This document shows, one piece after another, positions 46,559 to 47,645 of a DNA stretch of 64,000 nt; position 1 is the first letter of the stretch; the number at the start of each line of letters is the position of its first letter. Under the pieces are notes generated by a model, which saw only the letters and a list, made by a program, of their open reading frames with translations, searched no databases and was not told the DNA's origin. Where the stretch lies: positions 2,976,001-3,040,000 of the forward strand of contig OY101115.1 in NCBI GenBank assembly GCA_956465555.1. The letters run 5' to 3'. Both the position numbers and the translations under genes were made by a program. This stretch comes from Nitzschia sp. pyKryTriq1. Taxonomy: Eukaryota > Bacillariophyta > Bacillariophyceae > Bacillariales > Bacillariaceae.

Positions 46559-46846
46559 TTATTTCGCACGTTGTCGCATCTTTCTTCGCTTGCGTCGAAG
46601 ACGTCGCATTCGCTTCTTGCGCCACTTCTTACGCATACCAGCGACGACGGCCATCCTCATTTGGAGGGTGTCCTCCTCTTCGACACCGTTGGCCTCGAGG
46701 GAACCTTCCTCCAAGGCATCGGCGCCGTTCAAAAGGCAAATTTGGTGGGAAGGGACGAACTCTGCGTTCTCGATCATGAGCTTGAGGCTCTCGACCGAGG
46801 TGGCAGCGTCCACTTCGTAAGCAGTAGAGTTGACAAAGATCTTCAT
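46559..46846 (-). CDS. RPL41: Ubiquitin-like protein fused to ribosomal protein eL41
   Basis: 95 aa from the ATG at 46846 (context ACGATGA). Residues 1-70 form a ubiquitin-like fold: MKIFVNSTAYEVDAATSVES (beta hairpin), a helix SLKLMIENAE, and LLNGADALEEGSLEANGV, ending in AVVAG. Residues 71-95 (starting MRKKWRKKRMRRL) match the 25-residue ribosomal protein eL41 almost exactly, including its own initiator Met and C-terminal MRQRAK. By analogy with ubiquitin-eL40, ubiquitin-eS31 and FUBI-eS30, the leader would be cut off after Gly70 to release eL41. Only one Gly precedes the junction. A 212-bp leader intron (47085-46874, GTAAGT ... CCTCAG) lies upstream. Confidence 0.88.
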   Translation of the reverse strand: MKIFVNSTAYEVDAATSVESLKLMIENAEFVPSHQICLLNGADALEEGSLEANGVEEEDTLQMRMAVVAGMRKKWRKKRMRRLRRKRRKMRQRAK

Positions 46847-47645
46847 CGTTTTGGACAGTACGGTTGCTCGAACCTGAGGAAAGAAGGGCAGAGTGAGTAC
46901 GGAGACTTGACACAACTTATCGCAAACACGAACCCCGGCCCTCTCCGTCATCCAGTTTTTCCAGCCATCAAATCCTCCTGGATTGTTGGACCGATACTAC
47001 ATTGTTCGTTGCCTCTCGTGGGTCATGAAGACAGAGGAGGAAACAATACTCTACTAGAGTAGTAGGGCTACAAGGCAAGACTTACAAGTTGGACTTGGAA
47101 CAGACAGCGATACTATGGCCATGGTCTCGTGCTTGCTGCTCGGCTCGAGGCCTTCAGTTCCTCACTTCCTCGTTGCTGGTGGCTGTCAGCGACACAACCC
47201 ACAACACGACCAAACGAATGATGCAGTAGGAAACTACGTATGTAGCAAATGTACTGGGTTTTACGTCTGACATCTGCAGTAAGGAAGGGACAGAAGTAAT
47301 ATTATGCGCGTGCAACGCGCATCATCATCATCATCATGACGACTCCTAGCTCTGTCTTTACTGTATGTTCTCTCTAGAGAGAGGGACAGCCGGGTCCCCA
47401 TAAAGATCCCCCAAAGGTCTCCCGGTCTGTACGTCCACCGATAGCTAAAGATCGTCGTGGTCGTCGTGGAAAAGCCAGCACAGAGCACAGAAGAGCACAG
47501 AACTTATTTCGAATTTCGACTTTCGCCTCTGTCTCGCATCTCGCCTCTTCATTCTTTATTCTTTGTGACTACAAGTAAGGTCTCGAAATCACAGGGTCCG
47601 TCCCCATAGTTTGTTGTGCAAGTCAAATTCACCACGGATTTGAAA
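46847..47645. promoter_or_regulatory. Divergent region with the eL41 leader exon, its intron and promoters
   Basis: On the minus strand a 5' leader exon ends at 47086 and is spliced (intron 47085-46874) to a 27-nt leader before the eL41 fusion start. That leader exon contains an ATG in strong context (ACCATGG, 47122-47120). Once spliced, it opens a frame that overlaps the fusion gene in another reading frame. On the plus side the region contains the promoter of the J-domain gene. A CATCATCATCATCATCAT run is at about 47318-47337. Confidence 0.5.

Follow-up and report, generated by a model that had tools for sequence, protein, structure and literature searches.

The locus described here raises the question of why a ribosomal protein of 25 residues, eL41, should be encoded immediately behind, and in frame with, a ubiquitin-like domain (Ubl). 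It lies in a window of 64,000 nucleotides (nt) from the diatom Nitzschia sp. pyKryTriq1 (assembly GCA_956465555.1, contig OY101115.1, positions 2,976,001 to 3,040,000 of the forward strand), to which coordinates refer unless another contig is named. Read on the minus strand from 46846 to 46559, the frame specifies 95 residues and then TAA, confirming the in-frame fusion reported in a preliminary description of this DNA. The leader opens with MKIFV (MQIFV in ubiquitin), and its residues 1-70 end in AVVAG with the eL41 Met adjoining. The single-Gly junction noted in that description (AVVAG/M, without Gly-Gly) is thus seen in the translated frame. The coding features are:

46559..46846, minus strand: Ubl-eL41 fusion, whole coding frame of 95 amino acids (aa), TAA stop codon included
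46637..46846, minus strand: ubiquitin-like leader, 70 residues, net charge -10, tail AVVAG
46562..46636, minus strand: eL41 (eS32), 25 residues with its own Met, matched by PF05162 and by solved chains, charge +18

We regard it as rather probable that the gene produces a precursor in which the Ubl serves as a cis-acting acidic chaperone leader and is cut off after Gly70 to free eL41. The observations in hand for this reading are the in-frame fusion itself, a codon usage resembling that of expressed genes, the opposite charges of the two parts, and searches that found no second eL41 gene.

The identity of the C-terminal part is clear. Residues 71-95 match PF05162 above its curated cut-off (31.8 bits) at 25 of 25 positions, bearing out the earlier claim of a complete eL41 with its own initiator Met, and they also match solved eL41 chains. 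An intron-blind profile search of the 40.65 Mb genome returned this single PF05162 match. Because such a search could overlook a split eL41 gene, two exact degenerate patterns, corresponding to N-terminal and C-terminal pieces of eL41, were also run over the genome; the former occurs at the fusion site alone, and the latter at three sites, the other two of which are in unrelated context. Since the profile and the patterns together yielded no second eL41 gene, the fusion is the apparent sole source of eL41 in this genome, so far as exact patterns and the assembly can show.

As an N-terminal domain of the ubiquitin family, the leader is read in frame with a ribosomal protein, and it is not ubiquitin itself, sharing 19 identities with the genome's own ubiquitin over 70 residues. 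We infer that it folds as a diverged ubiquitin-like domain, and several results count against this. Its PF00240 score is below the Pfam cut-off, and the site is not listed among the 122 matches of a genome scan with that profile. Structure prediction, which the preliminary description had proposed as a check, did not support the domain: two AlphaFold2 runs without an alignment modeled the Ubl part poorly and gave no confident Ubl fold, and a Foldseek search with the model of the Ubl alone (not that of the fusion) returned no match at E 0.001 or better. There is no close Ubl paralogue in the genome, where the best other match to the leader has an E value of 0.015. The subthreshold score, the missing scan entry and the unconvincing models are what would be expected if a chance open frame, rather than a real protein domain, happened to precede eL41, an explanation that we consider very improbable.

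The synonymous codon usage of the Ubl suggests a translated sequence. It was scored against seven coding stretches assumed to be highly expressed (polyubiquitin, the ubiquitin (Ub) fusions Ub-eL40, Ub-eS31 and Ub-NiSOD (nickel superoxide dismutase), eS30 and two tubulins), with a background of 224 windows of 70 codons drawn from the 19 non-overlapping open reading frames of at least 250 aa in the window, these being mechanically called frames whose status as genes is unproven. Towards the reference, the Ubl has a score of 0.345 bits per codon, a value reached by none of the background windows (maximum 0.094). None of the 224 reaches it either when the reference is freed of ubiquitin (Ubl score 0.365) or includes a low-scoring gamma-tubulin-like gene; with the latter reference, the strand's two other frames score negative. 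The measure has features that tell against relying on it: when each reference is left out in turn, scores run from -0.08 (eS30) to 0.44 (polyubiquitin), and eS30, Ub-eL40 (0.07) and Ub-NiSOD (0.08), three of the seven, fall under the background maximum. The 21 informative codons of the eL41 part score about zero (-0.01 and 0.06). The codon-usage signal resides in the Ubl part, and its likeness to that of expressed genes points to heavy translation of the Ubl frame.

Inspection of the sequence upstream suggests a two-exon gene, which is presumably transcribed. A strong splice donor, GTAAGT, occurs at 47085 and an acceptor, CTTTCCTCAG, ends at 46874, suggesting that the 5' leader holds a 212-nt intron and that the start codon stands 27 nt into exon 2; the position of the acceptor defines the predicted untranslated part of that exon. 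The additional features are:

46874..47085, minus strand: predicted 212-nt 5'-leader intron, GTAAGT ... CTTTCCTCAG, from sequence inspection
46847..46873, minus strand: predicted 5' untranslated part, exon 2, with start context AAAACG ATG AAG
46652..46654, minus strand: Met65, an internal in-frame ATG, context ATGAGG ATG GCC

Met65, with A at -3 and G at +4, could be the start of a short, 31-aa form of eL41. It is therefore conceivable that eL41 is mostly made alone, by internal initiation at Met65 or Met71, by leaky scanning or from a transcript that begins within the frame, in which case the Ubl would be a side product or a second gene product. The retention by eL41 of its own Met is in keeping with this, as is a possible upstream ATG at 47122, which, if transcribed, would open a different frame running over the Ubl as far as a TAA that overlaps the eL41 ATG. 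We nevertheless judge such a scheme unlikely, as the first ATG of the fusion also has A at -3 (AAAACG ATG), it is separated from the eL41 ATG by three further in-frame ATGs and, at 46719, an out-of-frame one, and the codon usage indicates heavy translation of the Ubl frame. The frame opened by the ATG at 47122 (minus strand, context GAGACC ATG GCC) would comprise 93 residues if transcribed and spliced as predicted. It crosses the whole Ubl, and over that stretch it stays open in just 1.6% of 5000 synonymous recodings.

The two parts of the protein are opposite in charge. In eL41, 18 of the 25 residues are basic and none is acidic (net charge +18), and the Ubl has a net charge of -10, an isoelectric point of 4.05 and 2 Lys; the corresponding net charges are -8 (1 Lys) for human FUBI, +17 for eS30 of the Nitzschia genome and 0 for ubiquitin. 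The most acidic of 25 other Ubl domains of the genome has a charge of -6, these 25 having been read out from the 122 PF00240 matches; five further fetched loci, belonging to two polyubiquitin arrays, were excluded, and some domains are truncated at the match ends. N-terminal ubiquitin has been proposed as a cis chaperone of eL40 and eS31 (PMC8122580, PMC8354635). By analogy, the first 70 residues of the precursor, a diverged Ubl, would act as a cis-acting chaperone or solubility leader for the highly basic eL41 peptide, and would be cut off after Gly70, before or during 40S assembly, leaving eL41 with its normal Met N-terminus. The enzyme might be a ubiquitin or Ubl protease tolerating an Ala-Gly tail, and the fusion would then work in the manner of Ub-eL40, Ub-eS31 and FUBI-eS30. 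The earlier suggestion that the leader helps so small and basic a protein to be made is plausible.

The junction is where cleavage is most open to doubt. It has Ala-Gly in place of Gly-Gly, and an alignment with ubiquitin shows A, V and V at the positions of R72, L73 and R74. FUBI-eS30 with a junction mutated to Ala-Ala or Gly-Val is uncleaved, Ala-Gly not being among the mutants described there (PMC8354635). The diverged, non-GG tail thus raises the alternative that the leader is retained, the Ubl staying on the ribosome as a lineage-specific extension of eL41. Giardia Ub-eS31 has been reported to be uncleaved, presumably owing to an altered junction (PMC8122580), and short N-terminal extensions of eL41 do exist among deposited chains, some of which have 34 aa (nine extra residues) and others 37, 39 or 41 aa. 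Among the chains seen, the extension reaches 16 residues at most and forms no domain. Moreover, the association of eL41 is stronger with the small subunit than that with the large one, and an archaeal 30S structure shows the N-terminal extension of the protein enclosed by h27, h44 and h45 next to the P site (PMC7005279), so that a folded domain on Met1 should not fit and its removal is expected. FUBI-eS30 cleavage, by USP36 with a contribution from USP16, is required for 40S maturation (PMC8354635, PMC10611586), which is impaired by the uncleaved protein (PMC8354635). Retention of the leader, which the preliminary description had entertained, is on these grounds improbable, and we infer that a ubiquitin or Ubl protease removes it. 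A cut exactly before Met71 would give the N-terminus of the deposited 25-residue eL41 chains. ATG8, ATG12 and UFM1 terminate in one Gly and are served by proteases or pathways of their own, and a single Gly alone is therefore not disqualifying.

A remnant of a Ubl was also considered in some of the 34-aa chains (7ase, 8a3w and 6zj3), which have Gly-Gly-Met or Gly-Met before the core, and was rejected after a profile search. Their leaders (MGTISRPGG, MGTVSRPRG and, from the third residue, SISRPRG) are unlike a Ubl tail; we take these chains to be of trypanosomatid and Euglena origin.

Ribosomal proteins with a ubiquitin-family leader at the N-terminus are well known. Ub-eL40 and Ub-eS31 (UBA52 and RPS27A; yeast Ubi1-3) likewise place a ubiquitin fold on a small basic ribosomal protein without a spacer, but their partners differ from eL41 and their leader is true ubiquitin ending in RLRGG, whereas the Ubl is diverged, acidic, six residues shorter and ends in AVVAG. 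The preliminary description was not aware of a published eL41 fusion, but such fusions are in print: Martin-Villanueva et al. 2021 (PMC8122580; Table S2) name eS8, eS19, uL1 and eL41 as rare ubiquitin partners, which is restated in a review of 2024 (PMC11354881). That entry likewise joins a ubiquitin-family domain to eL41 in one protein; it may or may not be of the same lineage and may contain true ubiquitin. A literature search on hyphenated names such as Ub-eL41 found no paper, and a Ubl is not mentioned in the passages seen of a paper on the T. pseudonana rpL41 promoter (PMC5561644). Algae carry lineage-specific Ub-NiSOD, Ub-P1 and Ub-actin fusions (PMC6332867), similar to Ubl-eL41 in being lineage-specific but composed of true ubiquitin and other partners. 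What appears to be new is the combination, namely that the only eL41 gene found carries a Ubl that is diverged, strongly acidic and without a Gly-Gly tail.

Another close counterpart is FUBI-eS30 (FAU), in which a diverged, acidic, lysine-poor Ubl is likewise joined to a very basic protein, in that case eS30 of the small subunit; eS30 and eL41 both reach the decoding region (PMC5693986). The hallmarks of FUBI are an RXLGG tail, Pro47, Val40 and His11 (PMC10611586), for which the aligned Ubl has AVVAG, Asp, Ile and a gap, respectively, and the shared trait is acidity with few lysines. Ubl-eL41 would work like FUBI-eS30 but, with eL41 as its partner and without these hallmarks, it is not a FUBI.

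The choice of ribosomal proteins that bear ubiquitin-type leaders has been called enigmatic (PMC8122580), and it is of interest that eS30 and eL41, both very basic, each occur, in separate lineages, with a Ubl that is diverged and acidic. One tentative possibility, less likely than its converse, is that a new Ubl originated in this lineage of algae when ubiquitin became fused to eL41, independently of FUBI and by the same logic, its tail drifting to Ala-Gly with a protease of its own, release of eL41 gating 40S maturation, and the freed Ubl perhaps acting as a non-GG modifier. The acidic, lysine-poor Ubl would in that case neutralize a very small basic protein destined for the decoding region. 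Such repeated invention, if true, would point to charge-neutralizing chaperoning, perhaps with a cleavage checkpoint, as the selected function rather than ubiquitin supply, and the non-GG junction predicts a protease of unusual specificity.

Collections of viral, bacterial and archaeal DNA were also searched with the 95-aa fusion, by peptide pattern and then by tblastn. The pattern matched 30 stretches of the viral collection and 224 of the genome collection, none of which tblastn confirmed, and an exact degenerate eL41 DNA pattern had no match in either collection; given their content, absence from them says little about diatoms.

The Nitzschia genome also contains Ub-eL40 (L007), Ub-eS31 (L010), Ub-NiSOD (L009) and polyubiquitin (L003), all with RLRGG tails. 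L009 (G000 C9:1074508) is ubiquitin fused in frame to a putative nickel superoxide dismutase, a partner named by eye; a Ub-NiSOD fusion has been reported for diatoms (PMC6332867). Six eS30 matches were found (L033-L038; G000 C17, C12, C3 and C7), one of which (L033) keeps a start ATG with a stop codon in frame shortly before it, the other five having Arg at the Met position. None of the six open frames contains a Ubl, upstream exons joined by splicing not having been searched. Near-identical opposite-strand frames cover the same stretch in the eS30 copies, suggesting recent duplication or retrocopying. L011 (G000 C2:1998404-1998847, minus strand) encodes two tandem divergent ubiquitins with a signal-peptide-like leader and a C-terminal extension, and is possibly the plastid-envelope (SELMA) ubiquitin of secondary algae. 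On G000 C4, C6, C7, C14 and C16 there are very long open frames (701 to 2652 aa) that contain numerous divergent ubiquitin-like repeats in tandem. The diatom nature of the organism, assumed in the preliminary description, is supported by one of three light-harvesting proteins compared with the PDB: L055 had no match at E 1e-40, L054 gave less specific matches to chlorophyll a/c proteins from several groups, and L056 matched fucoxanthin chlorophyll a/c FCPI-7 (6ly5, 275 bits) and Lhcr11 (6l4u, 274 bits), both of which we take to be Chaetoceros diatom structures.
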